Source: Chloroflexota bacterium
GTDB taxonomy: Bacteria; Chloroflexota; UBA6077; FW602-bin22; CADDYW01
Assembly (NCBI GenBank): GCA_021324795.1
Contig: JAJPIK010000067.1
Location: forward strand, 174,256 to 238,255
Direction: 5' to 3'
Length of the DNA: 64,000 bases
Both the position numbers and the translations under genes were made by a program. Positions within the stretch are counted from its first letter, which is position 1. Every line of letters starts with the position of its first letter. Positions 1,848 to 28,835 of this stretch are shown here, in pieces. The notes beneath the pieces were generated by a model that saw only the letters and a list, made by a program, of their open reading frames with translations, had not been told where the DNA came from and made no database searches.

Positions 1848-3050
1848 TCAAAGGATGGATTGATAAAGGCGCAGATTTGCAAGGGCGATAGCATCCCACT
1901 GGAATGAGACCGCCAAGCGAGCCACGCCAGCCGAAAGCCTTGACCGCAGGCTAAAATCTCTGGCAAGTTGCTCGATAGCCTGCGCGAGTTGCTCCGGCGC
2001 CTCGGTTGGAACGAGTAAGCAATTCTCCCCGGAGACGAGGGTTGGAAAACCCCTCGGCGCATTTTGATTTTGTGGGATCGTCGTAATCACCGGTAAGTGC
2101 TGCACGAACGCCGCGATCAAGGTACCGTGACGCAGCGAGGCACCATCTTTGAAAGGCAAGACACAAAGGTCGGCAGCACGAAGATACCCGGCGACGTCTA
2201 AGGCGCCGACGTATCCAGTCCAGCCGATTCTGCCACGGAATTCTGGCTGGTCGAGGCGCTGACGGATCGTATTCACGTAGCGCCATTCCGAGTTTCCCGT
2301 GTCTCCCGATGATGCTCCAATCATCAAAAGTCGCACTGCCAGGCCCCGCTTTACCAATTGCTCGAACGCTGAAACCAGGGTATGAACGCCTTTACTCGGG
2401 GCAAGGAAGCCAAAAAAAGCCAACAGACATTCATCGTCACGAACTCCCAGGCTTTCACGCCAAGTGCGTCGGTCATAGGTGGTCGGCAGCTCGGCCGGAA
2501 TATTGCTGCCAATCGGGATGATTCTGAGCTGTCGTCGGCCCCAGGTCCACCGAGTCGTCTCACTCGTCACCCGACCAGCGAGTCTCTGAAAATCCTCCGC
2601 CGTCGTGGTAATCACCGCGTCAGCTCCGGCGCCAAGAATCCAGGTTGCCAGGTGACGGATTGGCCCGATCTTCGGCAACAAGTATGGTTGCTTGAGATCG
2701 TGATACGTGACAACCGTTCGTGTTCTTGGCCGGCGGAGGCGGTTGATCCATGGCACGAGATTGACGCCAATCTTCATATCAAAGGCACCAGTCTGATACT
2801 GAATGTGCAGAACGTCCGGTTCCAAGATATCGAGCTGCTGCACCACGTCGCGCCAGAGATCGGCCCCCCATGACTTGAGCGATGGATAAACACGGACCGC
2901 GCTATCTTCGCCGCGCGGCGTCGCCCGTTCCGACGTAAGCACCGACACTTCAACGCCGTGACGGGTGAGACCAGCGCCAAGCAGCGCAGTATAATCGGCA
3001 ACTCCTCCGCGTAACGGCGGGTATTCACCGGTGAGCAAGACAACGCGCAA
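1848..3050 (-). CDS. Glycosyltransferase family 4 protein
   Basis: 400 aa; MRVVLLTGEYPPLRGGVADYTALL N-terminus and FFGFLAPSKGVHTLVSAF / LPFKDGASLRHGTLIAAF donor-site motifs. Confidence 0.85.
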   Translation of the reverse strand: MRVVLLTGEYPPLRGGVADYTALLGAGLTRHGVEVSVLTSERATPRGEDSAVRVYPSLKSWGADLWRDVVQQLDILEPDVLHIQYQTGAFDMKIGVNLVPWINRLRRPRTRTVVTYHDLKQPYLLPKIGPIRHLATWILGAGADAVITTTAEDFQRLAGRVTSETTRWTWGRRQLRIIPIGSNIPAELPTTYDRRTWRESLGVRDDECLLAFFGFLAPSKGVHTLVSAFEQLVKRGLAVRLLMIGASSGDTGNSEWRYVNTIRQRLDQPEFRGRIGWTGYVGALDVAGYLRAADLCVLPFKDGASLRHGTLIAAFVQHLPVITTIPQNQNAPRGFPTLVSGENCLLVPTEAPEQLAQAIEQLARDFSLRSRLSAGVARLAVSFQWDAIALANLRLYQSIL

Positions 3051-3137
3051 AGATGTCCTCCCAGGTCGGGGAACTTAGAGCTTGCACGGCAACCGTACCA
3101 CCGAGGCACAAAGAACACAGAGACGCACTTGAAGCAT

Positions 3138-4136
3138 TCATGAACTCCTCTGTGTCCTCTGAGCCGCGATAGTGTCGTGACTGTCCGGTTGATATCGATA
3201 TCCGACTAAATGCCGGAGCTGATGGCTTGCCACTAGGAAGTGTGAATGCAATCGCTCTCGGCGAAGGGCGACACGATGGCCAACGAGCAGCTTCCCGAAC
3301 TCCGCGACCGCCTCGACAATCGTGAACGCTAGCAGACACAGACGTAACGCCCGGCCAACATCGGCGCCAAAGTGCTTCTCATAAAGACGACTCTTACTTT
3401 CGAGGAAGTTCTGGCTCCGCTGTATGCGATTTTGTTCGCTGCTCCGTCCTTCGTGGTGGATCACAACCGCTGACGGAAGGTAAACGATACGCCAACCAGC
3501 TCCCTGAGCTCGGTAGCACCAGTCCAGCTCTTCCGAATACATGAAAAAGCGTTCGTCGAAGCCACCGATCGCATCGATCACCTCTCGGCGGACAAGTAAA
3601 CACGCTCCGACCAACCAATCGACGTATTGACACTGGTCATCCGATTCATTCGCCCGATAGTAGCGCCTCAACGGCGGCAAACCCGGCAACCAACGCTGAA
3701 TAGGCGTACTTTCGACCAGTCCGGTCAGAGGAGTCGGGAAGGAACGGCGGCTAGATTGAACACTGCCGTCAGGAAACTGAAGCCGTGGTCCGACAATGCC
3801 AACGCGTGGATGGTTGGCCAGATACTCGAGCATCGCAGTGAGCGCCCCTGGACGCAGCTCAGTGTCTGGATTTAAAAAGAGCACAGTCTGGCCAGTCGCA
3901 ATTTCCAGCGCTTGGTTGTTTGCCGCCGCGAAGCCAGGATTACGATCATTGGCGATGACCCGCACCACGGGAAAATGCTCGTGAATCGCGTCGACTGTAC
4001 CATCAGAAGACGCGTTGTCGACGACGAGAATCTCGGTATTTAGCCCGGCTAGCTCGGCCTGAACTGTTTCTAAACAGCGACAGAGCAAGTCGCGGACATT
4101 GTACGATACGATAATGACCGATATGGTCAGCGACAC
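3138..4136 (-). CDS. Glycosyltransferase family 2 (rhamnosyltransferase-like)
   Basis: 332 aa; VIIVSYNVRDLLCRCLETV, VVDNASSDGT, NPGFAAANNQAL, FLNPDTELRPGAL. Confidence 0.88.
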   Translation of the reverse strand: MSLTISVIIVSYNVRDLLCRCLETVQAELAGLNTEILVVDNASSDGTVDAIHEHFPVVRVIANDRNPGFAAANNQALEIATGQTVLFLNPDTELRPGALTAMLEYLANHPRVGIVGPRLQFPDGSVQSSRRSFPTPLTGLVESTPIQRWLPGLPPLRRYYRANESDDQCQYVDWLVGACLLVRREVIDAIGGFDERFFMYSEELDWCYRAQGAGWRIVYLPSAVVIHHEGRSSEQNRIQRSQNFLESKSRLYEKHFGADVGRALRLCLLAFTIVEAVAEFGKLLVGHRVALRRERLHSHFLVASHQLRHLVGYRYQPDSHDTIAAQRTQRSS

Positions 4137-4266
4137 CCCTGGAACCTTCCCGTCGCTTGCCGATAATCAGCGCTCTGAGTATACTGAATCTGAACCCAGT
4201 ACGCGAATGTTTGACCGGTCCGGCAACTCAGCTTCGTCTGACTGTTGGTCGAAAGGGTGTATTTCT

Positions 4267-5127
4267 ATGCCTGAGCCGCTCGTGTATCTCAATGGTGAGT
4301 TCCTCCCCTATGCTGACGCGCGAATTCCCGTCGAAGATCGCGGGATGCAATTCGCCGATGGCGTCTACGAGGTTGTAAGGTACTACCTGGGACGTCCGTT
4401 TCGGATGGCAGATCACCTTGCCCGGTTGGTCAGATCGGCCGAGGGAATCGAGCTCCCCCTGCCGCCGCTCGATCTAATCGAGCAGGCGATGAATCAGCTT
4501 GTCGAGCGCCAAGGCATGTCCGAAGCCACCGTTTACCTACAGATTACGCGTGGCCCGGCCCCTCGTTTGCACGGATTGATCGACCATCCGACGCCCACGG
4601 TGATTGCGATCGCTCGACCGGCGAGCACAACTCGTCCGCGCCCAACCCTGCGCGTGGTCACCGCTAGCGACGATCGCTGGGCCCGCTGCTACCTCAAAAC
4701 GACGATGTTGCTGCCGAACGCTTTAGCTCGGGAGCGAGCCCGTCGACTGGGCGCTGATGATGCGATCTTTCTGCGCGACGGCTTTGTGATGGAAGCTACG
4801 TCGTCGAATGTATTCCTGGTCAGGCAGGGACGATTGCTCACCTCACCTTTGACAAACTACATCCTGGCCGGCATCACCCGTGGTGTTGTGCTGGAGTTGG
4901 CTGCGCAGATCGGCATCCCCGTATCCGAAGAACCAATTCCGGCCCATTGGCTCTACCAGGCCGACGAAGTCTTCCTCACCGGTACGAACACTGAACTGGG
5001 ACCGATTATCAGCGTCGACAGTCGTTCTGTCGGCACTGGCCAACCCGGGGCGATTTATCAGCGATTGCTCGAAGCATTCGATGCGCTTACCCGGGCGTCA
5101 CAGCCGCTCTCGGTGCGGTCAGGCTAG
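4267..5127 (+). CDS. Aminotransferase class IV (D-amino acid aminotransferase-like)
   Basis: MPEPLVYLNGEFLPYADARIPVEDRGMQFADGVYEVVRYY; internal ATG start preferred over ORF-track start 4099; YLKTTMLLPNALARERARRLGADDAIFLRDGFVMEATSSNVFLV. Confidence 0.85.
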   Translation: MPEPLVYLNGEFLPYADARIPVEDRGMQFADGVYEVVRYYLGRPFRMADHLARLVRSAEGIELPLPPLDLIEQAMNQLVERQGMSEATVYLQITRGPAPRLHGLIDHPTPTVIAIARPASTTRPRPTLRVVTASDDRWARCYLKTTMLLPNALARERARRLGADDAIFLRDGFVMEATSSNVFLVRQGRLLTSPLTNYILAGITRGVVLELAAQIGIPVSEEPIPAHWLYQADEVFLTGTNTELGPIISVDSRSVGTGQPGAIYQRLLEAFDALTRASQPLSVRSG

Positions 5128-5128
5128 C

Positions 5129-7588
5129 TTGCGAACGGTCCGAGTGACGACTGCCGCCCGGCCAAGCTTGCCCGCTTTCGTCTGGCGGGTGCGCAAGCTG
5201 ATCTGGTGGCGGCGAGGCAGTAGCGAGATCACGGATCGGTCGTCATTCGGAAGCACTCCATCCACGATTCGCCATCTCCGGCTTGGCGTTCTCGAAATAC
5301 TTTCCCTTCTGATCGCGGCCGGTTTGGCCCCGCTCTTTTATTGGCGTCTTCTCACCACTAACCCAGAAGACGCTGCGACGCTGCCATCTGGCGATTTCAC
5401 TGATCTTAACTATCCCTATCGCCGCTGGGTTGCCGAGCAGCTCGCTCGCGGCGTTGAGCCCTACTGGAATCAATTCGTTTCCGCCGGTCACTCGGCCGTG
5501 GGTGACATCCAGTTCCGCATCTTCTACCCACCGGAAAACTGGCTCGCTTCGCTCGGCGGGAGTAATTTTTCCGTCCGGCTGTTCGAAATTGGCGTCGTCG
5601 GGCACATTGCGTTCGCAGTGGTTGTCACCTACCTGCTCGCCCGGCGCCTCAGCCGAAGTCGGGTCGGCGGCCTCGTCAGCGCCGTCGTTTTCGGCTTCGG
5701 CGGCTATCTCAGCGGTTTTCCGGTTCAGCAAACCAACGTTCTCGAAGCGAGCGTCTGGTTACCATTCGCGCTCTTGTGCGTTGAACTCGGGACTGATTAC
5801 GGATCGCCCGCCGGCTTCGCGGCGGGTGCAGGGGCACTCGGGTTGTCCGCGCTAGCTGGACATCCTCAAACTTTCCTATACGCTCTGATCACGACGATAT
5901 GCTACGCTCTTTACAAGAGTTGGTGTCATGGCCGCATTCGCCTGACGCCGCTGCTTGGCACCATTCTCATCGGCCTTGGGAGCGTCGCGCTCGCGGCGAT
6001 TGCCCTGCTTCCAGCGTACCTTCACCTCGCCCTGACCGACCGGGCGACCGCGGCTTACGACTTTACCAAGGGCGGTTTCGCCCTGCACGAGATCGTCGGT
6101 ATATTGTTTCCCTCCTCGATCGGCGGCGCTCCTTTGTACAACGGCATCTTTACCTGGTTTCTTGTCGCGATCGCCCTGGTCAGTCCGTTCCGGCGCTCGA
6201 ACAAGGTTTTCTGGTGCGTGTTGGCTGTTATGGCGCTCCTTCTTTCGTTCGGGGCGAACACGTTTCTGCAGCCGGTCTTTTACTTGGTGACAGATAGCTA
6301 CAAGCTCCACGACCACGAACGCGCCGTTTTCTTATTCGATTTCGGGGTCGCAATCCTCGCCGGTTACGGAGCCGCTCAGCTCGCGGCGTCGGCCGACGTA
6401 TCACTCGCCTGGCTACACCGGGCGCTACGCTGGCCAACCGCTGCCATCGTCGCGTTCTTCGTTCTTTTCGTGGTCGACTTCGCCAGCACCACCGGTGCTC
6501 AGGGTACCCTGCTCGCCTTCGCCGATCCAATGGTATTTCTGACGCTCGTCTTCAGTCTCAGCGTCGCGATTCTCTGGCTGCGCGAGCGTGGTCTGATCTC
6601 ACCGGCAATGACCGGCCTGCTGGTGATCGGCCTCGTCACTCTCGATATCTTTTCTGTCGACTGGCAAGCTAACCTTCGCCCCGGACCGCCGGATCAGTTG
6701 CTGGCGCCAACCCCGATCGTTGATTACCTCGAGCAATATCCGACCGGCTTATTCCGCATTGCGAGCGAAGGGCTTCTCCCCGGCGACGGTAATGCTGGAG
6801 CGCTTTGGCGCTTGGAAGACGTGGTCGGTAACAGTCCACTCGAAACCAAGAGCTACAGCGATTTCACCAAGCTCGTTCCAGAATGGACGCGCTGGCAGGT
6901 CTTGAACGTCCGCTTCGTCGTGACCAAGCGTAAGCTCGACGATCCGCGGCTTCAACTCGTCCGAAATGATGGCGACGTCAACCTCTATGAGATCGATCAG
7001 AAGGATCGTCTTCCCCGGGCCTACGTTGTTGATCAATTTGTCGCCGCTCCTAGCCATCAGATCGCCTTGCAGGCCGTCCAGAGCGTCAATTTGCACACCA
7101 CCGCGATCGTGGAAGGCACCCTTCCGGACTGGCTCATCGCCAGCCAACCCATGACCACCACGATCAACTCGTCTATCCACCTCGTCCAATTCTCTGATTA
7201 TCAGGCCAACACCGTCACGGTGAAAGCCGATCTTGCGCAATCCGGCTTACTCGTGCTCAGCAACGTGGACTACCCCGGTTGGCACGCTAGCGTCGACGGT
7301 ACGTCGACTCCTATCTTCGAAGTAAACGGCATCGTTCAAGGAGTAGCCTTGAAGGCCGGCCTCCATACCGTTCAGTTCACTTTCAATCCGCCAGGCCTGA
7401 TCGAAGGACAAGCTATCACCAACCTCGCGCGAACTCTCCTCCTGGGTATCGCCGGTCTTGAAATCCTCGCTCGAATCGTGCTCGGCTTGGAAAAGTTTCG
7501 ACGGCTCGGTCGCCACCGGCCAAGCTACCACCATCAGCCGAACGAATCCACTGAGCTCAGTAACCTTACAATCGATCCCTTTCCTTGA
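5129..7588 (+). CDS. YfhO-like multi-pass membrane protein
   Basis: Likely TTG start 5129 in the 4880-7588 frame; FTDLNYPYRRWVAEQLARGVEPYWNQFVSAGHSAVGDIQFRIFYPPENWLAS, many TM segments, C-terminal VLSNVDYPGWHASVDG. Confidence 0.8.
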   Translation: MRTVRVTTAARPSLPAFVWRVRKLIWWRRGSSEITDRSSFGSTPSTIRHLRLGVLEILSLLIAAGLAPLFYWRLLTTNPEDAATLPSGDFTDLNYPYRRWVAEQLARGVEPYWNQFVSAGHSAVGDIQFRIFYPPENWLASLGGSNFSVRLFEIGVVGHIAFAVVVTYLLARRLSRSRVGGLVSAVVFGFGGYLSGFPVQQTNVLEASVWLPFALLCVELGTDYGSPAGFAAGAGALGLSALAGHPQTFLYALITTICYALYKSWCHGRIRLTPLLGTILIGLGSVALAAIALLPAYLHLALTDRATAAYDFTKGGFALHEIVGILFPSSIGGAPLYNGIFTWFLVAIALVSPFRRSNKVFWCVLAVMALLLSFGANTFLQPVFYLVTDSYKLHDHERAVFLFDFGVAILAGYGAAQLAASADVSLAWLHRALRWPTAAIVAFFVLFVVDFASTTGAQGTLLAFADPMVFLTLVFSLSVAILWLRERGLISPAMTGLLVIGLVTLDIFSVDWQANLRPGPPDQLLAPTPIVDYLEQYPTGLFRIASEGLLPGDGNAGALWRLEDVVGNSPLETKSYSDFTKLVPEWTRWQVLNVRFVVTKRKLDDPRLQLVRNDGDVNLYEIDQKDRLPRAYVVDQFVAAPSHQIALQAVQSVNLHTTAIVEGTLPDWLIASQPMTTTINSSIHLVQFSDYQANTVTVKADLAQSGLLVLSNVDYPGWHASVDGTSTPIFEVNGIVQGVALKAGLHTVQFTFNPPGLIEGQAITNLARTLLLGIAGLEILARIVLGLEKFRRLGRHRPSYHHQPNESTELSNLTIDPFP

Positions 7589-8670: not shown

Positions 8671-9285
8671 GTGACAATTGGCGTTCTGGCACTCCAGGGA
8701 GACTTCCGCGAGCATCTGGAGATGCTCCGGAAAATTGACGTAGACGCTTGCGAAGTGCGCTTAGCCGGGGATCTCGAGCGGGTCGACGGCTTGATCATTC
8801 CCGGTGGTGAGAGCACGACAATCGGCAAGCTTCTCAGACAATTCGATTTACTCGAGTCAATGCGCCAGCGAATTCGCGCGGGTATGCCAGTCTATGGCAC
8901 CTGTGCCGGCGCGATCGTCCTTTCAGCCGAGGTTCTCGATCGCGGGGTTGACCAACCCACTCTCGGTGTCATGGCGACGACCGTGCGGCGTAATGCGTTC
9001 GGGCGGCAGGTCGACAGCTTTGAAGCTGATCTTGCAATCCCCGTCCTTGGTCCTGAGCCGTTCCACGCCGTCTTTATTCGAGCACCGATTATCGAGCGGG
9101 TTGGGCCTGACGTCGAGGTGCTCGCCGCGTTGCCGGACGGAACGATAGTCGCGGTCCAGCAGGGGAATATGCTCGCCACGTCCTTCCATCCCGAGTTGAC
9201 CGAAGATGGCCGATTCCACCGCTATTTCGCCAGTTTGGTCGACCGGAGTCTCGCGGCTACCCCCCTAGCTCGTGAGAGTCGATGA
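8671..9285 (+). CDS. pdxT: Pyridoxal 5'-phosphate synthase glutaminase subunit PdxT
   Basis: 204 aa; IGVLALQGDFREHLEML, IPGGESTTIGKLL, GTCAGAIVLS, TSFHPELTED; follows pdxS. Confidence 0.95.
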   Translation: MTIGVLALQGDFREHLEMLRKIDVDACEVRLAGDLERVDGLIIPGGESTTIGKLLRQFDLLESMRQRIRAGMPVYGTCAGAIVLSAEVLDRGVDQPTLGVMATTVRRNAFGRQVDSFEADLAIPVLGPEPFHAVFIRAPIIERVGPDVEVLAALPDGTIVAVQQGNMLATSFHPELTEDGRFHRYFASLVDRSLAATPLARESR

Positions 9286-10232
9286 TTCGGGCGCTTCGGC
9301 CCACCGATATCCTTGCCTACGTCGACTTCTGCCGTCAGGTTGCTGGCCCCCTTGCAGACGGCAAGAATGAGCGCTTGCCACCAATTTCTGCCCTTCGGAG
9401 CTTTTGGGGTCACTCCTTAGCCATCGAACCAGGACGAGAAAGCTGGGTTCAAATTGAGCACGGCCGGATTTCAGGGCTGGTAACGACCAAGCATCGGGAA
9501 GGGGTGGACGTCTGGCAGATCGATCAGCTTTTGATCTTGCCATCGGCCGATGCCGGTCGAACGTGCATGAGACTGCTCGAACATTTATTGGCCGCGGCAG
9601 CGGACGAGGGTATTCAAAAAGTATTCTTGCGGCTCACAACGGCTGATCCGGCGCTTGAATGGGCAAGCCGGGTGGGCTTTTTCCAATACTGCACTGAATA
9701 TGTTTACTATCTCGACGAAGTGCCGACGTTCGCGCACCCGGCGGTGGACTCACATCTGCGCCAGCGACGAGCGTCGGACCATCAAGCCTTATTTCAACTC
9801 TATTGCGCTGCGGTTCCGTTCCGCGTTCGTCAAGCCGAGGGTATGACCTTGCACGAGTGGAGGTGGACTGATGGTTGGCAAGTCCGTCACTTGGGATTTC
9901 CGCTTCCCTTTCGCACATCCCGACGCCAGGACTACGTCGTCGAAACCATGCCCCGTCTCAATGGCTGGCTTCAGGTCAACCATCAGGCGCGGCGTCTCAG
10001 CATCATGGCAAACCCCAACGAGGCGCCTGACGTGACCGGTTTGCTCCGTTTCGGCCTGGCCCGGCTTGGGCCAGGCCGAAACGCCGACTGTGTTGCCCGA
10101 GACTATCAACCGGAGGTGATCTCTACCTTGGAAGAGCATCATTTCCGCCAGATCGGGCACTTTGCCTTGCTGGCGCGGGCCCTAGCCGCGCGCATTCCCG
10201 AAGTAAAACTGGTACCAATTCGAGCATCATAA
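9282..10232 (+). CDS. GNAT-family acetyltransferase-like protein
   Basis: 316 aa; IDQLLILPSADAGRTCMRLLEHLLAAAADEGIQKVFLRL; overlaps pdxT stop by 4 nt. Confidence 0.6.
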   Translation: MIRALRPTDILAYVDFCRQVAGPLADGKNERLPPISALRSFWGHSLAIEPGRESWVQIEHGRISGLVTTKHREGVDVWQIDQLLILPSADAGRTCMRLLEHLLAAAADEGIQKVFLRLTTADPALEWASRVGFFQYCTEYVYYLDEVPTFAHPAVDSHLRQRRASDHQALFQLYCAAVPFRVRQAEGMTLHEWRWTDGWQVRHLGFPLPFRTSRRQDYVVETMPRLNGWLQVNHQARRLSIMANPNEAPDVTGLLRFGLARLGPGRNADCVARDYQPEVISTLEEHHFRQIGHFALLARALAARIPEVKLVPIRAS

Positions 10233-10234
10233 AA

Positions 10235-11926
10235 ATGACATACCGCTCATATCCGCGTCGCTCCCGGTGGGATGATTCCCGACGCGGCGTATTACCTTTC
10301 GGACAAAGATCGGCAATCCAAATGGACAATCGTGTCCCCCTGCCGGCCCTGCCACCGCTTGCACCGGCAACGGACACTCAGCGACAGATCACTGACAACA
10401 TTGACGCCCTTCTGGATACCCTACCCCTCCGGATCGCCGACCCAATCCGGACGATGGAAGACCGTGATAATTTACTCGAGGTCGTCCTCGATCTCGGTCG
10501 CCTCCCAGAGGTCCGCTTCCCGGGGCGAGAGGTCGTCGTGACGACCGAAGAAGTGTCCGTAGCCGATCTCGATTACGTTGTCTCGCGCATCGGCGAGTTT
10601 GGCGAAGACAACCGCGCCGGTATCGAACGGACCCTCCATCGCATCTCCTGCATGCGCAATCGAAAAGGACGGATCGTTGGCCTAACCTGTCGAATTGGTC
10701 GGGCGGTCTACGGCACGATCGCGATCATCCGTGACATCATCGAGTCCGGACGTAGCACGCTCTTACTGGGACGACCGGGGGTTGGCAAGACAACGATGCT
10801 GCGTGAGGTTGCTCGGGTTCTCGCCGATGACTTCAAGAAGCGTGTCGTCATTGTTGACACGTCCAATGAGATTGCCGGCGACGGTGACATTCCTCACCCG
10901 GGAATCGGTCATGCCCGTCGCATGCAGGTGCCTCGGCCAAACTTGCAGCACGCGGTGATGATCGAGGCGGTTGAAAATCACATGCCCGAGGTTATCATCA
11001 TCGATGAGATTGGGACCGAGCTCGAAGCCCTAGCAGCGCGAACAATCGCCGAGCGGGGTGTTCAGCTTGTTGGCACCGCACACGGAACGAGCTTGGAAAA
11101 TCTCATGCTCAATCCGACCTTATCCGATCTGATTGGTGGCATCCAAAGCGTAACCCTTTCCGATGAGGAGGCGCGTCGACGCGGCACCCAAAAGTCGATC
11201 TTGGAGCGTAAAGCGCCGCCGACCTTTGACGTCGTCGTCGAAATTCAATCCTGGGATCGCGTCGCGGTTCATTTGGATGTCGCGATCACCGTCGACGCGA
11301 TTCTGCGCGGTCATCCGCTGCCCGCGCAGCTTCGTGCCCTGCAGCCGTCCGGAGAGATCAAGGTCGAGCAGGCAAGACCGGTGTCGCTGGAGGCGCCTGC
11401 TCCGACTACTCGCACCGAGCCGACTCCGAGAATGGTCAGCCGACGAGAGACATCCAACAAGCCGCTCCGGATTTATGCCTACGGGATCAGTCACAGTCGT
11501 CTCGACCAAGCGGCACAGGCCCTCCAGCTTCCGGTCGAGGTGGTGAAGGATCTACAGCAGGCTGATGCGGTTCTCACGCTCAAGAATTACTATCGCAAGC
11601 GAGGCACGGCGATTCAGGAGGCCGAGCAAACCGGAGTTCCGGTGTACGTTCTCAAGAGCAACACCTTGGTCCAGGTCCAGCAAGGTTTGGCGAGCTTGTT
11701 CGACCTGGATGTGCCACCAGATCCGGTCGCGGAAGCGCTCGCCGAGACCCAGGATGCGATCAATCACGTCCTTTCTGCCGAACAGCCGGTCGAGCTCTCA
11801 CCACAGAACGCGTATATCCGACGCTTGCAACACGAGATGGCGGAGAAGTACAATCTCGCTTCACGTAGCGAAGGGCGAGAGCCTCATCGGCGAGTCCGTA
11901 TTTTTAACGCATCGCGTATGGAATAG
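10235..11926 (+). CDS. R3H domain AAA/SpoIIIAA-like ATPase (Ycf45-type)
   Basis: 563 aa; Walker A LLLGRPGVGKTTMLREVARVL, VIIIDEIGTELEA, GTAHGTSLENL; C-terminal PQNAYIRRLQHEMAEKYNLASRSEGREPHRRVRIF resembles R3H. Start may be Met at 10325. Confidence 0.85.
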   Translation: MTYRSYPRRSRWDDSRRGVLPFGQRSAIQMDNRVPLPALPPLAPATDTQRQITDNIDALLDTLPLRIADPIRTMEDRDNLLEVVLDLGRLPEVRFPGREVVVTTEEVSVADLDYVVSRIGEFGEDNRAGIERTLHRISCMRNRKGRIVGLTCRIGRAVYGTIAIIRDIIESGRSTLLLGRPGVGKTTMLREVARVLADDFKKRVVIVDTSNEIAGDGDIPHPGIGHARRMQVPRPNLQHAVMIEAVENHMPEVIIIDEIGTELEALAARTIAERGVQLVGTAHGTSLENLMLNPTLSDLIGGIQSVTLSDEEARRRGTQKSILERKAPPTFDVVVEIQSWDRVAVHLDVAITVDAILRGHPLPAQLRALQPSGEIKVEQARPVSLEAPAPTTRTEPTPRMVSRRETSNKPLRIYAYGISHSRLDQAAQALQLPVEVVKDLQQADAVLTLKNYYRKRGTAIQEAEQTGVPVYVLKSNTLVQVQQGLASLFDLDVPPDPVAEALAETQDAINHVLSAEQPVELSPQNAYIRRLQHEMAEKYNLASRSEGREPHRRVRIFNASRME

Positions 11927-11930
11927 GCGG

Positions 11931-12554
11931 GTGTTCATCAGCTTTGAAGGTCCAGAGGGAAGCGGCAAGACGACTCAGGCGCGCCGTCTTGCCGAGACTC
12001 TCACTACCGAAGGTCACGAGGTCATTCTGGTCTACGAGCCCGGTGGTACGTCGATTGGTAAGGCGATTCGTGGCTTGCTCCTTTCGCCAGAAGAAGCACC
12101 CAACGAGCGAACGGAAGCGCTGCTCTTCGCGGCGGCTCGCGCTCAACTGGTTGAAGAGGTCATTCGCCCGTCCCTTTCGCGCGGTGCCATCGTTATCAGC
12201 GACCGCTTCAGCGATTCGACCATTGCTTACCAAGTCGGGGGGCGCGGGTTACCGCGCGAGATGGTCGAACGACTCACCGCATTCGCGACCGCTGGCATAA
12301 AGCCCGATCTGACCTTCTTACTCGACGTCGAGACCACCACTGGCTTCGCCCGAAAACGGCAGACCACGCCGGACCGAATGGAGCGTGCCGATCTCGATTT
12401 TCACGAGCGGGTGCGCAATGCCTATCTGCAATTGGCGAAGAGCGAGCCGGAGCGAATTGTCCGTTTAGATGCGACTCGGCCAGCGCCGGAATTAGCCCAG
12501 CAAATTCTCGAACTGGTCCGCGCCAAACTCTCAAGGGAACCGGCTGGGACATGA
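11931..12554 (+). CDS. tmk: Thymidylate kinase
   Basis: GTG start 11931: VFISFEGPEGSGKTTQARRLAETL, VISDRFSDSTIAYQ, DLTFLLDVET; ORF-track start 11565 lies inside the upstream gene. Confidence 0.93.
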   Translation: MFISFEGPEGSGKTTQARRLAETLTTEGHEVILVYEPGGTSIGKAIRGLLLSPEEAPNERTEALLFAAARAQLVEEVIRPSLSRGAIVISDRFSDSTIAYQVGGRGLPREMVERLTAFATAGIKPDLTFLLDVETTTGFARKRQTTPDRMERADLDFHERVRNAYLQLAKSEPERIVRLDATRPAPELAQQILELVRAKLSREPAGT

Positions 12555-23222: not shown

Positions 23223-23303
23223 TTGGGCCTCACCCTCTCTGGGACCAGCTACGATTCAAACTCGAGTTCAAGCTCTAGTCCAAGGTTAAGGATACCGTCA
23301 TCA

Positions 23304-23999
23304 ATGTCTGTCCGTCAACAGGTGATGCGCTTCTTCCTCGACGTTCTCTACCCTCCCCGTTGCGTTGGCTGTCGTGAGCGAGGAAGTTGGCTGTGTCAAC
23401 GATGCCTTGCCGCTACCCCACGACTTCCAGCCGATCACTGCCGCCACTGCGCCATCCCCATGAGCGGAGCAGCGGTGTGCCCGGACTGCTGGCGCGATCC
23501 CCCAGAATTCGAGCAAGTGAGCTGCGCGTTTTTATTTGAAGGTCCAATTCGCGCCGCGATCCACCAGCTCAAATACCGAGGAGCACGCCACCTGGCCGAG
23601 CCCATGGTCCAAGCAGCGCTGACCGAACTGTCCGTGCCGCCGAGTGATCTTGTTGTTCCGGTGCCCTTGCATCCGCGACGCTTAGCTGAGCGGGGTTATA
23701 ATCAGTCCGCGCTCCTTGCTCAAGCGCTTTCAGCGATCACTAACCTTTCGCTCGTTGACAATGCGCTGCAGCGGGTCAAAGATACTCCGGCTCAGGTCTC
23801 CCTACCCGGGAAAGAGCGTTGGCTGAACGTCCGAGGCGCCTTTCACGCCGACCCCGGCGCGTTCGCCCACCAGTCAGTTCTCCTGCTCGACGACGTGGCA
23901 ACCACCGGCAGCACGCTTCGCGCGGCCGCCAGAGCGATCAAACGTAGTGGTGCACGACAAGTGGATGCATTGATCATGGCGCGGGCAGTGATCCACTAA
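23304..23999 (+). CDS. comF: ComF family protein
   Basis: VLYPPRCVGCRERGSWLCQRC, HCRHCAIPMSGAAVCPDCW, VLLLDDVATTGSTLRAAARAIKRSGA. Confidence 0.9.
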   Translation: MSVRQQVMRFFLDVLYPPRCVGCRERGSWLCQRCLAATPRLPADHCRHCAIPMSGAAVCPDCWRDPPEFEQVSCAFLFEGPIRAAIHQLKYRGARHLAEPMVQAALTELSVPPSDLVVPVPLHPRRLAERGYNQSALLAQALSAITNLSLVDNALQRVKDTPAQVSLPGKERWLNVRGAFHADPGAFAHQSVLLLDDVATTGSTLRAAARAIKRSGARQVDALIMARAVIH

Positions 24000-24055: not shown

Positions 24056-24099
24056 CATTGGCTGGCCCCCTAATCCCCTCCCAGAGGGGGAGAGAATTA
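24056..24099. repeat. Intergenic repeat, copy A
   Basis: ATTGGCTGGCCCCCTAATCCCCTCCCAGAGGGGGAGAGAATTA, similar to 27631-27681. Confidence 0.5.
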
Positions 24100-25119
24100 G
24101 ACTAACAGCCACCCCATTGCTCGATACCATTTGGCGGTATCGGCAAGGCCTCGCTGGAGTGGAACCCGAGGCTCAAACCCTAGCTCGCACTTCGCCCGAG
24201 TGTTCCGACAAGCCCAAAAGCCGCCAAGAATTTCTTCTGCCTTCCAGCGGTCAAAGATAATTGGTGTGCCGGTCACCTCGCGTGCTGCCTCTGCGATGCG
24301 CCCAGCCAGACGAAGCATCCATCCGGAGACCGGCACCTTCACTCCATGTCGTCCAACCGCGGTGCCAATCAACGTCATGAGCTCGCGATACGAAGGTGTT
24401 TCATCGCCAGCAATAAAGTAGGTTCGGCCGACGGCCTCGGCAGAAGTCGCCGCGATCAGAATTCCGTCGGCTGCGTCGGCCGCGTGGACGATGCTCAACT
24501 CGCCTTCTACCGGCAAGGACGGGACAAGGCCGAGGGCGGCACACTGAAAGATCGCCAACGTCTCACGATCTCGCGGTCCATAGATCGAAGGCGGACGGAT
24601 GATCGTCACCGGTAGCCGCTTGGAATAAGCCGTCGCGACTTGTTCTTGCTGCCACTTGCTGTTACCATAAGGGGTAGTCGGGCAACAGGGTGAAGACTCA
24701 TCCAGCGGATCCCCCGGCAGCGAAGGGCCGACCGCGGCCAGGCTGCTAACGACGACCACTCGCCTCAGCCAGGGGGCCACGTTCTGACAGGCCTCCAAGA
24801 GATTAATCGTACCGAGATAGTTCACACGATAATAGGCGCTTGGCGAGCGTGCTTTGATCAGGCTAGCAAGGTGAAAAACGTAATCCACATCGCGCAAGGG
24901 GAATGACAGGGAATCAGGATCGGTGACGTCACCATGGCAGAACTGGATCCCAGACGATGGAAGGAAGACGCAGTTGCTGCTCGCTCGAACGAGGCATCGG
25001 ACCGAAGCGCCAGCATCGACCAAGCGCTCAACAACGTAGCTGCCGAGAAAACCAGTCGCTCCGGTAACCAGGCAGGTTCGCCCTTTGAGCGCATCGAAGG
25101 CCATCTCTACTGCAGTCAA
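24097..25119 (-). CDS. NAD-dependent epimerase/dehydratase (extended SDR, 3beta-HSD-like)
   Basis: 340 aa; CLVTGATGFLGSYVVERLVDAGASVRCLVR; YRVNYLGTINLLEAC; YGNSKWQQEQ (YxxxK). Confidence 0.88.
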   Translation of the reverse strand: MTAVEMAFDALKGRTCLVTGATGFLGSYVVERLVDAGASVRCLVRASSNCVFLPSSGIQFCHGDVTDPDSLSFPLRDVDYVFHLASLIKARSPSAYYRVNYLGTINLLEACQNVAPWLRRVVVVSSLAAVGPSLPGDPLDESSPCCPTTPYGNSKWQQEQVATAYSKRLPVTIIRPPSIYGPRDRETLAIFQCAALGLVPSLPVEGELSIVHAADAADGILIAATSAEAVGRTYFIAGDETPSYRELMTLIGTAVGRHGVKVPVSGWMLRLAGRIAEAAREVTGTPIIFDRWKAEEILGGFWACRNTRAKCELGFEPRVPLQRGLADTAKWYRAMGWLLV

Positions 25120-26234
25120 TAATTTCCAACCTGATAAATGAGATCAGCCATTTGACGAGCGGCTAATGGCTTGCCGTGACGCCAGGCATTCGCCGTCATC
25201 CAACGACGTTCATCAGGATTTCTAACTAACTTAGCCAGATTGCCGACGATCTTCGGGACCGGACCAGGGGCAAAGCCAACACCACGGCTCTCGACAAAGG
25301 TGCCGTTCCCTTCCTCTTGACCAGGAAGGGTTTGGGTCAAGATGACCGGCCGCCCTGCGACGAGGGACTCGGCAATCGTTTGTGGTCCCCCTTTGGTGAT
25401 GACCACGTCTGATGCGTGCATCAGTTCGGGAATAGTTTTGACAAAGCCTAAAACGAAGGTAGGCGTTCGCAGCCGCGAACGCTCCAGTCGCTGGCGCAGG
25501 CGCTGATTGCGGCCACAGACGACGATGAGCTGTACGTCGAGATCGGTCGCCTGTATCTCGCGAACGATCTCTTCGAGTCCACCTGCCCCTTCCCCACCAC
25601 CGATCAGCAGCGCCGTGAAGCGCCCCGGGTCGAGCCCCATGGTAGCACGGAGCTCGGCTGGCGTCGTCTCGACAGTGGCAAAGCACTCGTCCACCGGCAG
25701 GCCCAGACAACGTACCCGGTCTGAATCTGCTCCCCAACCGATGACGCACCGAAAGCTTTCGGTCGTCGCGGTGTTGAGTAGGTCCAAACGCGGATCGACC
25801 CAGCTCACGTGAACTGAAACAAGCTCGCTCACGCTCGCCACCACTGGGATCTTGCGGCTGTACACTTCGACCGCATCGAGAATCGGTCGATTGGCGAGCG
25901 GATGAGTATTGACGACAACGTCCGGTTGGTATTCCTCGAACAGATGCAAAACTTTCTGTCGGGTGGCCGGCCAACTGAACCGGGAGAACACTTGATAGCG
26001 TCGCGGATCGTTGACGGCATAATACAGCCACCCATAGAACCAGGGGGCAACTCGAATGACCGGTCCATACAGTCGTGTCACCCGTTCGACGACACTTGGT
26101 GAGCCAACGCCGAAAACGTCGGCGATTTCGACCGAAACAGAGCTACCAAACTGACGATGCAGGGCTTTCTCGAGCGCAAGAGACATTGCTCGATGACCAC
26201 CACCGGTATGCGACATGGCGATCAAAACGCGCAC
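25116..26234 (-). CDS. MGDG synthase/UgtP-like (GT28-type) glycosyltransferase
   Basis: 372 aa; MRVLIAMSHTGGGHRAMSLALEKAL, VVNTHPLANRPIL, LIGGGEGAGGLEEI, VVITKGGPQTIAESLVAGRPVILTQTLPGQEEGN; 4-nt overlap with the SDR. Confidence 0.88.
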   Translation of the reverse strand: MRVLIAMSHTGGGHRAMSLALEKALHRQFGSSVSVEIADVFGVGSPSVVERVTRLYGPVIRVAPWFYGWLYYAVNDPRRYQVFSRFSWPATRQKVLHLFEEYQPDVVVNTHPLANRPILDAVEVYSRKIPVVASVSELVSVHVSWVDPRLDLLNTATTESFRCVIGWGADSDRVRCLGLPVDECFATVETTPAELRATMGLDPGRFTALLIGGGEGAGGLEEIVREIQATDLDVQLIVVCGRNQRLRQRLERSRLRTPTFVLGFVKTIPELMHASDVVITKGGPQTIAESLVAGRPVILTQTLPGQEEGNGTFVESRGVGFAPGPVPKIVGNLAKLVRNPDERRWMTANAWRHGKPLAARQMADLIYQVGNY

Positions 26235-26259
26235 GTCAGGTGCCCTCCTCGGTCATGCG

Positions 26260-27444
26260 TCAGAGGATACCTAAGCGTCTACCCGTCGATTCCATGACCT
26301 CGAGCGCATAATCAAGGTGCTGGCGCGTATGAGTTGCCATCAGACTCGTCCGAATCAACGCGCGGTCGGGTTCGACGGCCGGACTGACCGCGGCATTGGT
26401 AAAGACACCACCGTCGAACAAACCACGCCAGAACATCGCAAGTCGCATCTCATCGCCGACGATCAAGGGGATGACCGGGCTACTACTCTGACCGGTTGAG
26501 AAATGTAGGTCGTTGAGGCCTCTTTGCAGATAACGGGTGTTCTCCCAAAGCTTCTCTCTTCGTTCGGGCTCGTTCTCAATAATATCGAGCGCGGCGAGCG
26601 CTGCCGCCGTGCTCGCCGGCGGTAGGGCCGCGCTGAAGAGCAATGCCCGGGCCATGTGGCGAATGTAGTAGATCACGTCAACGTTACCCGCGACGAATCC
26701 GCCAATCGAGGCGAACGACTTGCTGAACGTCGCGGTAATTAAGTCGACTTCATCGAGTAATCCAAAGTGCTCGGCGACTCCCCGTCCCCCCGCACCGAAA
26801 ACGCCGACACTGTGCGCTTCGTCGATGAGCAGACGCGCCCCGTATTTCTTCTTGAGGCGAACCAGTTCCGGAACGTTGGCGACGTCACCTTCCATACTGT
26901 AGACACCATCGACGATGATCAATATCCCTCTTTTGGGATCGATACCTTGAAGAACTCGCTCGAGATCCGCCATATCGTTGTGCTTGAAACGGATGGTCTC
27001 CGCCATTGAGAGGCGGCAGCCATCGATAATGCTCGCGTGGACACTCCGATCGAGAACGATCGTGTCGTGGCGTCCGGCAATCGCGGTGATCGCTCCCAGG
27101 TTCGTTTGAAAGCCCGTCGTGAAAACGAGCGTATCATCCTTGAGGACAAAGCGCGCCAATCGGCTTTCCAGCTCTCGGTGTAAGTCAAGAGTTCCATTCA
27201 TTAACCGGGATCCGGTGCAGCCGCTTCCATAGCGATCAATAGCGAGCCGCGCGGCTTCTTTGACGCGAGGATCCTGAGTCAACCCAAGATAATTGTTCGA
27301 GCCAAGCATGACAAATCGTCGTCCTTGGATCGTCACTTCGGGGCCTGCTTCCGATTCCAAGGGAATGAAGAACGGATAGCATCCCATCGCCTCGACTTCG
27401 CGCGGCTTCGTTAGCGTAGCACATTTTGCGAATAAGTCTGCCAT
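26260..27444 (-). CDS. Alpha-oxoamine synthase family PLP enzyme, serine palmitoyltransferase-like
   Basis: MADLFAKCATLTKPREVEAMGCYPFFIPLES..; GSNNYLGLTQDPRV, GSGCTGSRLMNGTLDLHRELE, VHASIIDG, VDGVYSMEGDVA, LIDEAHSVGVFGAGGRGVAE, TFSKSFASIGGF. Confidence 0.88.
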   Translation of the reverse strand: MADLFAKCATLTKPREVEAMGCYPFFIPLESEAGPEVTIQGRRFVMLGSNNYLGLTQDPRVKEAARLAIDRYGSGCTGSRLMNGTLDLHRELESRLARFVLKDDTLVFTTGFQTNLGAITAIAGRHDTIVLDRSVHASIIDGCRLSMAETIRFKHNDMADLERVLQGIDPKRGILIIVDGVYSMEGDVANVPELVRLKKKYGARLLIDEAHSVGVFGAGGRGVAEHFGLLDEVDLITATFSKSFASIGGFVAGNVDVIYYIRHMARALLFSAALPPASTAAALAALDIIENEPERREKLWENTRYLQRGLNDLHFSTGQSSSPVIPLIVGDEMRLAMFWRGLFDGGVFTNAAVSPAVEPDRALIRTSLMATHTRQHLDYALEVMESTGRRLGIL

Positions 27445-27630
27445 GAATCTCCTCCGACCGGAACGGCTGCGCCAGTCCATAGTAGGCCATGCTCTTATCA
27501 ACGTCAACTGAGAGGCCGCCCCCCTGCTTTCAAGCGGTATCAATTATGCGAAACCGGGAACGACTAACGGACCAGAGAGTTTACGCATGCCCTACTTACA
27601 CGTGGCTAATTGGGCCACCACAGCAAGTAA

Positions 27631-27681
27631 AATTGGCAGGTAGCCCCTACCCTAACCTTCGTCCCAGAGGGAGAGAGAATA
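27631..27681. repeat. Intergenic repeat, copy B
   Basis: AATTGGCAGGTAGCCCCTACCCTAACCTTCGTCCCAGAGGGAGAGAGAATA, similar to 24056-24099 in the same orientation. Confidence 0.5.
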
Positions 27682-27698
27682 TCCGAGGAGGGAAGCAC

Positions 27699-27920
27699 AT
27701 GGGAGTTGATACCGCACAAATGGTGCGCGACGCTCTGGCCTTTGACGGACGAATCAACGAAGCCAATCTACTGGTTCGGTATGGCGAAGGAGTCGTTACC
27801 CTGAGTGGCGTCCTATTTAGCGAGCAAGAGAAGGAAGCCGCCGAGGATATCGCCCGGCACATACCGGGAGTCGAACGCGTCGTCAACGAAATCCTGGTCA
27901 TGAAAGTCACGGCACGCTGA
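27699..27920 (+). CDS. BON domain protein
   Basis: MGVDTAQMVRDALAFDGRINEANLLVRYGEGVVTLSGVLFSEQEKEAAEDIARHIPGVERVVNEILV; GAGGAGG RBS. Confidence 0.85.
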   Translation: MGVDTAQMVRDALAFDGRINEANLLVRYGEGVVTLSGVLFSEQEKEAAEDIARHIPGVERVVNEILVMKVTAR

Positions 27921-28031
27921 AGTCGCAATAAAGCGCAAACGGCCGCCATATCGGTTAGCTTCTAGTCTTCTTGCTGTACCTACCCCCAAACCTTAGAATA
28001 TCGTGAGATAAGGCACGATTAAGGGGCAACC

Positions 28032-28835
28032 ATGGCGTCACCTCGCCTGCTGCGTACCGATGCCGTGGTATTACGTCGGCACGACCTAGGAGAAACTGAC
28101 CGCATCGTCACGCTCTACACGAGTGCTTACGGCAAGCTGCGGGCCGTTGCTAAGGGAATACGCCGCCCGACGAGCAAGCTTGGCGGACACCTCGAGCTCT
28201 TTACCCACAGTCGGCTGATGCTGGCTCGCGGCCGTAACCTTGACGTGATCACCCAGGTCGAAACCGTCTCGTCTTTTCTTGGCTTGCGCGAGGATCTTTG
28301 GCGCACCGGCCTGGCCTATTACGTTGCCGAGCTCATCGATCGACTTACTGAGGAACGAGCGGAAAATCCCGCCTTGTTCGATCTCCTGATTGCAACCTTT
28401 GAGCGGCTCGCCTCCGCCCGTCGTCCGGATCAAGTGGTCAGGCTCTTTGAGATGCAAGCCGTGGGTCTACTAGGCTACCGCCCGGAGCTACGCGACTGTG
28501 TGCTCTGCCGCAAGCCGTTGGAACCGGTCGGAAACGCCTTCAGTATCCCCAATGGTGGTGTTCTTTGCAGCATCTGCCGAACCGCGGATCCGCAAGCGAC
28601 TCCCCTCACGACCAACGGGTTGAAAGTCTTGCGCCTTTATCAAGAGGGAAACTGGAACCTGGCCAGCCGCCTTCACTTGAGTCCGGAGCTCGTCAGCGAG
28701 TTGGAGCACGTGTGCACAGGGTATGCCACGAGCGTGGCCGACAGCCAACTCAAATCAGCCAACTTCGTCGCGTCGCTGCGACGGGAAGGCTTGGGCCGCG
28801 ACGCAAGCCCGGCGAGCACCAATAAGCCCGTCTGA
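28032..28835 (+). CDS. recO: DNA repair protein RecO
   Basis: LRTDAVVLRRHDLGETDRIVTLYTSAYGKLRAVAKGIRRPTSKLGGHLELFTHSRL; CVLCRKPL..CSICR. Confidence 0.95.
   Translation: MASPRLLRTDAVVLRRHDLGETDRIVTLYTSAYGKLRAVAKGIRRPTSKLGGHLELFTHSRLMLARGRNLDVITQVETVSSFLGLREDLWRTGLAYYVAELIDRLTEERAENPALFDLLIATFERLASARRPDQVVRLFEMQAVGLLGYRPELRDCVLCRKPLEPVGNAFSIPNGGVLCSICRTADPQATPLTTNGLKVLRLYQEGNWNLASRLHLSPELVSELEHVCTGYATSVADSQLKSANFVASLRREGLGRDASPASTNKPV

Follow-up and report, generated by a model that had tools for sequence, protein, structure and literature searches.

What lipid is made by an operon that sets an apparent sphingolipid enzyme beside a glycosyltransferase of the family that acts on diacylglycerol? 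Three genes from a Chloroflexota bacterium raise this question. They lie in a stretch of 64,000 nucleotides (GenBank assembly GCA_021324795.1, contig JAJPIK010000067.1, positions 174,256 to 238,255 of the forward strand), the whole of which we call the window, and the source genome is a 4.87-Mb assembly in 124 contigs that is 93.7% complete. An earlier note, made from the letters alone, proposed that these genes could condense an acyl-CoA with an amino acid or another partner, reduce the resulting ketone and glycosylate the product, giving a glycolipid of either the sphingoid or the long-chain-diol type. Our analysis favors the sphingoid answer: the trio probably encodes the central part of a ceramide pathway of the bacterial type, along with a glycosyltransferase dedicated to it, and would yield glycosylceramide, a reading that we hold with a probability of roughly 0.7.

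The three-gene arrangement is real. We verified a trio of co-directional minus-strand open reading frames at window positions 24097-27444, whose coordinates reproduce the described 25-nt gap followed by a 4-nt overlap, and the motifs that the earlier note quoted are found in the translations. In the order of transcription, the features are as follows.

26260..27444, minus strand: alpha-oxoamine synthase (AOS) of the serine palmitoyltransferase (Spt) type, proposed to be a serine palmitoyltransferase; 394 amino acids, assigned from model scores, identity, tree and active-site residues
26235..26259, minus strand: intergenic gap of 25 nt between the AOS and glycosyltransferase genes, with a ribosome-binding-like GAGGAGG
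25116..26234, minus strand: glycosyltransferase (GT) with MGDG_synth and GT28 C-terminal domains, proposed to glycosylate ceramide or a sphingoid; 372 amino acids, assigned from domains and clade
25116..25119, minus strand: overlap of 4 nt (TTGA) between the GT stop and the TTG start of the next gene
24097..25119, minus strand: extended short-chain dehydrogenase/reductase (SDR), proposed CerR-type ketone reductase; 340 amino acids counted from the TTG, with TGATGFLG and YGNSK motifs

The AOS gene starts with ATG, with GGAGGAG upstream, and the GT gene starts with GTG. If the SDR instead began at an in-frame ATG at 25104, an 11-nt gap to the GT would replace the overlap.

The first gene is supported as an Spt-type alpha-oxoamine synthase, for which we propose serine palmitoyltransferase activity. 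Its product matches PF00155 far above chance (195 bits), and its best curated model in NCBIfam is Spt-CFB at 529 bits, ahead of a Kbl-related model (403), Kbl (369) and BioF (367). Its identity is 50% to the Spt of Sphingobacterium multivorum, whose structure has been solved, 48% to a Rubrobacter AOS and 40% to the Spt of Sphingomonas wittichii, against 35% and 33% to Escherichia coli Kbl and BioF, respectively. Among relatives in the PDB, Spt gives 406 bits and cysteate fatty-acyltransferase 252 bits. A maximum-likelihood tree places the protein in a clade (100/99) with the Spts of S. multivorum, S. wittichii and Sphingomonas parapaucimobilis, which were all the bacterial Spts tested; E. coli Kbl, BioF and Kbl-like proteins from other Chloroflexota fall outside it. 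Residues N50, S79, H136, D208, H211, K242 (the pyridoxal phosphate lysine) and R365, which correspond to active-site residues of 3a2b, are all conserved. The earlier view that this enzyme stands closer to Spt than to Kbl or BioF is thus borne out by scores, identities and phylogeny alike, and the tree, which had been set as a possible refutation, puts the AOS in neither the Kbl nor the BioF clade. No other alpha-oxoamine synthase was recognized in the source genome, and there was no Kbl or BioF among the other PF00155 proteins checked.

The third gene had been described as an extended SDR, which its match to PF01370 (121 bits, far above chance) and its NAD-binding and YxxxK motifs confirm. We propose that it is a CerR-like ketone reductase, a prediction that draws on 32% identity (E=8e-35) to the S. 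parapaucimobilis SDR that occupies the place of cerR. Of 80 AOS relatives from public genomes, about 63 have an SDR next to them, and the pair recurs in at least eight phyla, with examples from Nitrospirota, Nitrospinota, Zixibacteria, Planctomycetota, Aminicenantes, KSB1, Coatesbacteria, Acidobacteriota and Chloroflexota. Eight loci from Aminicenantes and Acidobacteriota (L077, L081, L082, L087, L090, L098, L102 and L103) have another layout: Spt precedes a pair of large conserved genes (~610 and ~725 amino acids), the SDR is divergent and no bacterial ceramide synthase (bCerS) lies nearby.

The candidate for the N-acylation step lies outside the window. A GNAT protein of ~375 amino acids adjoins the AOS in 46 of the 80 relatives, and it was through these neighborhoods that the family was found; PF04339 (FemAB_like), tried as a proxy for bCerS, proved to be the wrong family. 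In S. parapaucimobilis, homologues of the GNAT are found close to cerR-acpR-spt and lptFG; in E. coli PN43 one (there named YghO) adjoins an AasR-CerR-AcpR-Spt-like set, and in Rubrobacter one stands between the AOS and an SDR. The S. parapaucimobilis arrangement matches the order in Caulobacter, where the ceramide synthase CC_1154 (CerS) adjoins CC_1155 (LptG2) (PMC11324152). From these neighborhoods we take the ~375-amino-acid GNATs as a candidate bCerS family, identified by synteny rather than by alignment to CC_1154. The window holds no member, and the source genome carries one copy on another contig (G000:C53:40623-41660, E=8e-81).

Directly upstream of the source-genome copy of the GNAT, on the same strand, is a TIM-barrel gene (AP_endonuc_2 or xylose-isomerase-like; L152:9950-10837, contig C53) that is kept beside the GNAT in all four genomes of the family. 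The E. coli PN43 record (L113, NZ_MG591698.1, listed as a plasmid) contains an acyl-AMP ligase, an SDR, an acyl carrier protein (ACP), an AOS, the YghO GNAT and an LptF/LptG pair, the layout of proteobacterial ceramide clusters, and adjoins the glc operon. One Nitrospirota locus (L037) has two bCerS-like GNAT copies close together downstream of Spt, at 9259-10446 and 11307-12452.

Is the association between these genes kept in related organisms? We examined co-occurrence in the window's class across 29 genomes, nine of which have the Spt-GT-SDR operon (G000-G005, G011, G025 and G023, in the last of which a contig end truncates Spt). Gene order is kept in all nine even where GT identity is as low as 37-38%, and the GT adjoins the AOS in every one. 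A single GNAT clade (96/95) occurs in eight of these nine genomes and in none of the 20 without the operon, where G010 and G017 carry GNATs of other kinds. Outside the class, the GNAT family was present in all 11 of the Spt-bearing Chloroflexota genomes tested. At one such Chloroflexota locus, L032 (JACQUQ010000035.1), all four genes stand side by side, in the order AOS (1427-2608), GNAT (about 2620-3747), GT (3816-4841) and SDR (4961-5932). We regard no other single item of evidence as stronger, since the GT is there physically within a ceramide operon. Lack of conservation of the trio across Chloroflexota had been named in advance as a refutation; what we found is conservation, in nine genomes of the class and at L032. 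The named relatives are metagenome-assembled genomes (MAGs), so binning errors are possible, yet the operon sits inside long contigs in several of them.

Two further observations concern these relatives. In G025 (L159:10073-11298), the Spt is split into two overlapping frames whose halves are 59% and 61% identical, in an otherwise complete operon, which could be a frameshift sequencing error or a pseudogene. In four relatives, a GT4-type glycosyltransferase, absent from the window, stands convergent to the SDR (L029:11480-12688, L030:11486-12733, L033:11432-12658 and L162:6700-7899); this enzyme might extend the sugar head group there.

The remaining gene encodes the GT, of an enzyme type known elsewhere for the synthesis of plant-like galactolipids. 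The GT scores above the gathering thresholds for PF06925 (MGDG_synth, 69 bits, far above chance) and the GT28 C-terminal domain (45 bits) and retains the TGGGHR motif, in agreement with its first description as a GT28-like relative of enzymes that glycosylate diacylglycerol. It aligns over its full length with Arabidopsis MGD1 (E=3e-46), its closest solved enzyme, and in part with a bacterial processive diacylglycerol glucosyltransferase, and it reaches 164 bits with the NCBIfam UgtP model, far under the equivalog cut-off of 500 bits. The GTs linked to the operon, ten in all, group together as a single clade (100/98; 99% of bootstrap trees) that excludes the MGDG_synth proteins of operon-less Chloroflexota, and the class genomes without Spt carry other MGDG_synth clades. 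Ceramide has been linked to this family before: by the title of Jorasch et al. 2000, as cited in PMC6445935 and PMC2169524, its Staphylococcus aureus and Arabidopsis enzymes are reported to make glycosphingolipids.

Gene content, phylogeny, synteny and co-occurrence are established here; the enzyme activities and the lipid product we infer, as the following pathway. The AOS would condense L-serine with an acyl-CoA or acyl-ACP, giving 3-ketosphinganine, as its place in the Spt clade and its conserved active site suggest. The bCerS-type GNAT on contig C53 may then N-acylate the sphingoid base, a role to which synteny and co-occurrence point, and the SDR, by homology to SDRs in the cerR position, would reduce the ketone to yield dihydroceramide. 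These two steps could run in either order; even for Caulobacter it is disputed whether N-acylation or reduction comes first. Finally, the GT would use a UDP-sugar to attach a hexose at the C1 hydroxyl, producing glycosylceramide, which would fit its membership in the operon, the exclusivity of its clade to operon-linked copies and the reported use of ceramide in its family. On balance, we favor the wider proposal that this uncultured Chloroflexota class makes glycosylceramides through a dedicated clade of MGDG-synthase-type GTs. These would be ceramide glycosyltransferases of a new kind, taken up into the ceramide operon beside or in place of the ceramide synthase.

Several observations weigh against this interpretation. 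The AOS, at 529 bits, falls below the 640-bit cut-off of the NCBIfam Spt equivalog model NF047600 and is therefore no certified equivalog, a cut-off that the tested AOS members of Nitrospirota (587) and Zixibacteria (533) also miss; and because it is the sole alpha-oxoamine synthase recognized in its genome, it may have an extra role. Neither acpR nor aasR lies beside the Spt, where alone they were looked for, no genome-wide search having been made. The GNAT of the source genome sits on a divergent branch from which some residues usual for the family, such as the GFD motif, are gone, and a different contig carries its gene. In G004, a genome that is 82% complete, the operon is present and no GNAT was detected. 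The Fisher p of 2e-6 for the GNAT clade against the operon is only descriptive, with independence overstated because the class genomes are related. Diacylglycerol, moreover, is the usual substrate of characterized MGDG_synth enzymes.

This last point leads to the alternative that survives best, although we consider it unlikely: that Spt, CerR and bCerS make ceramide while the GT, as an MGDG synthase or UgtP-like enzyme, glycosylates diacylglycerol, with shared transcription keeping the two membrane lipids in step. The PF06925 and UgtP matches and the kinship with MGD1 fit this idea, and diacylglycerol precursors should be available because the source genome encodes PlsY (160 bits) and PlsC (102 bits), acyltransferases of glycerolipid synthesis. 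However, the operon-linked GTs are a separate clade that in the class always comes with Spt, genomes without Spt having other MGDG_synth clades, and in L032 the GT sits between bCerS and CerR.

It is quite improbable that the AOS instead takes alanine, glycine or cysteate, which would lead to a 1-deoxy-sphingolipid or a sulfonolipid. The sequence does not reveal which amino acid is used, and cysteate fatty-acyltransferase is among the PDB relatives, but the Spt match is far stronger than that one, and a 1-deoxy or sulfonate product would lack the C1 hydroxyl that the linked GT presumably needs. Addition of a sugar at that hydroxyl would need a serine-derived sphingoid, which mildly disfavors the three other amino acids as AOS substrates.

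Still less credible is an ordinary Kbl or BioF with GT and SDR neighbors by coincidence. It would suit an enzyme that is the only alpha-oxoamine synthase recognized in its genome, but phylogeny, model scores and the Spt-SDR-GNAT context kept in many phyla contradict it, and no biotin genes or threonine dehydrogenase were recognized beside the AOS. We rejected this identity on the placement of the AOS in the Spt clade.

Last, glycolipids of long-chain 1,2-diols replacing glycerolipids would have a precedent in Thermomicrobium roseum, likewise one of the Chloroflexota, with long-chain 1,2-diol membranes and a genome without plsB (PMC2615216), but the presence of PlsY and PlsC means that the glycerol-3-phosphate acyltransferase route is not missing here, Spt chemistry with an amino acid would give 2-amino-ketones rather than diols and the co-occurrence of bCerS suggests an amide, so we rejected this most doubtful of the readings and treat the Thermomicrobium link as analogy only. 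Of the condense-reduce-glycosylate operon first proposed, then, the sphingoid half stands, on the Spt clade, the CerR-like SDR and a GNAT found elsewhere in the genome and inside the L032 operon, whereas the long-chain-diol half lacks support, given the presence of PlsY and PlsC.

The operon appears to be self-contained. A ComF-like gene (23223-23999, plus strand) lies on one side, and divergent BON-domain-like and RecO genes (27489-28835, plus strand) lie on the other; because these neighbors are unrelated and on the opposite strand, the operon stands alone. Promoter and terminator scans gave signal at chance level only. Similar short stretches containing CCCTCTGGGA occur on both flanks (window 24068-24090 and 27650-27690), one of them a GC-rich hairpin right behind the SDR stop, and a pattern search of the window for a repeated flanking element returned a single copy.

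If the glycosylceramide reading is true, the operon would provide a genetic basis for glycosphingolipids in Chloroflexota and widen the set of families to which bacterial ceramide glycosyltransferases are known to belong. Spt beside an MGDG_synth-type GT could then serve as a marker to predict environmental bacteria that make glycosylceramide. In addition, the ~375-amino-acid GNAT accompanies Spt and the reductase across many phyla, so that ceramide synthesis in them can be tested directly with few synthetic genes.

Known systems bring the locus into relief. With the Spt-CerR-bCerS pathway of Caulobacter (CC_1162, CC_1164 and CC_1154), Bacteroides and Sphingomonas, it shares all three enzyme families, as judged from homology and synteny, and the Spt clade; it differs in having no acpR or aasR beside Spt, a detached and divergent bCerS and an MGDG-synthase-type GT inside the operon. 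A Black Sea study predicted Spt-like proteins in 218 Chloroflexota MAGs and found Anaerolineae correlated with ceramides and glycosylated ceramides (PMC11334938). That work relies on correlation and Spt phylogeny, we found no mention in it of an embedded glycosyltransferase, and the class of the window is distinct from the Anaerolineae loci that we met. Our literature searches, open-access and not exhaustive, found no report of a Chloroflexota glycosylceramide or GNAT ceramide synthase, nor of an MGDG-synthase-type GT within a ceramide operon. Bacterial glycosyltransferases already known to act on ceramide include Caulobacter Sgt1 and Sgt2 (PMC6445935) and the Bacteroides alpha-galactosylceramide synthase (PMC9692976); the same role is predicted for the window GT, which its MGDG_synth and GT28 C-terminal domains set apart from them by description rather than by alignment. 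With the MGDG synthases and UgtP (YpfP) of PF06925 it has homology to MGD1 and the TGGGHR motif in common, whereas it scores under the UgtP cut-off and its operon context is ceramide rather than diacylglycerol or lipoteichoic acid. The sphingolipid potential of Chloroflexota had thus already been published, and the new element, as far as we have found, is an MGDG-synthase-type GT built into the ceramide operon.

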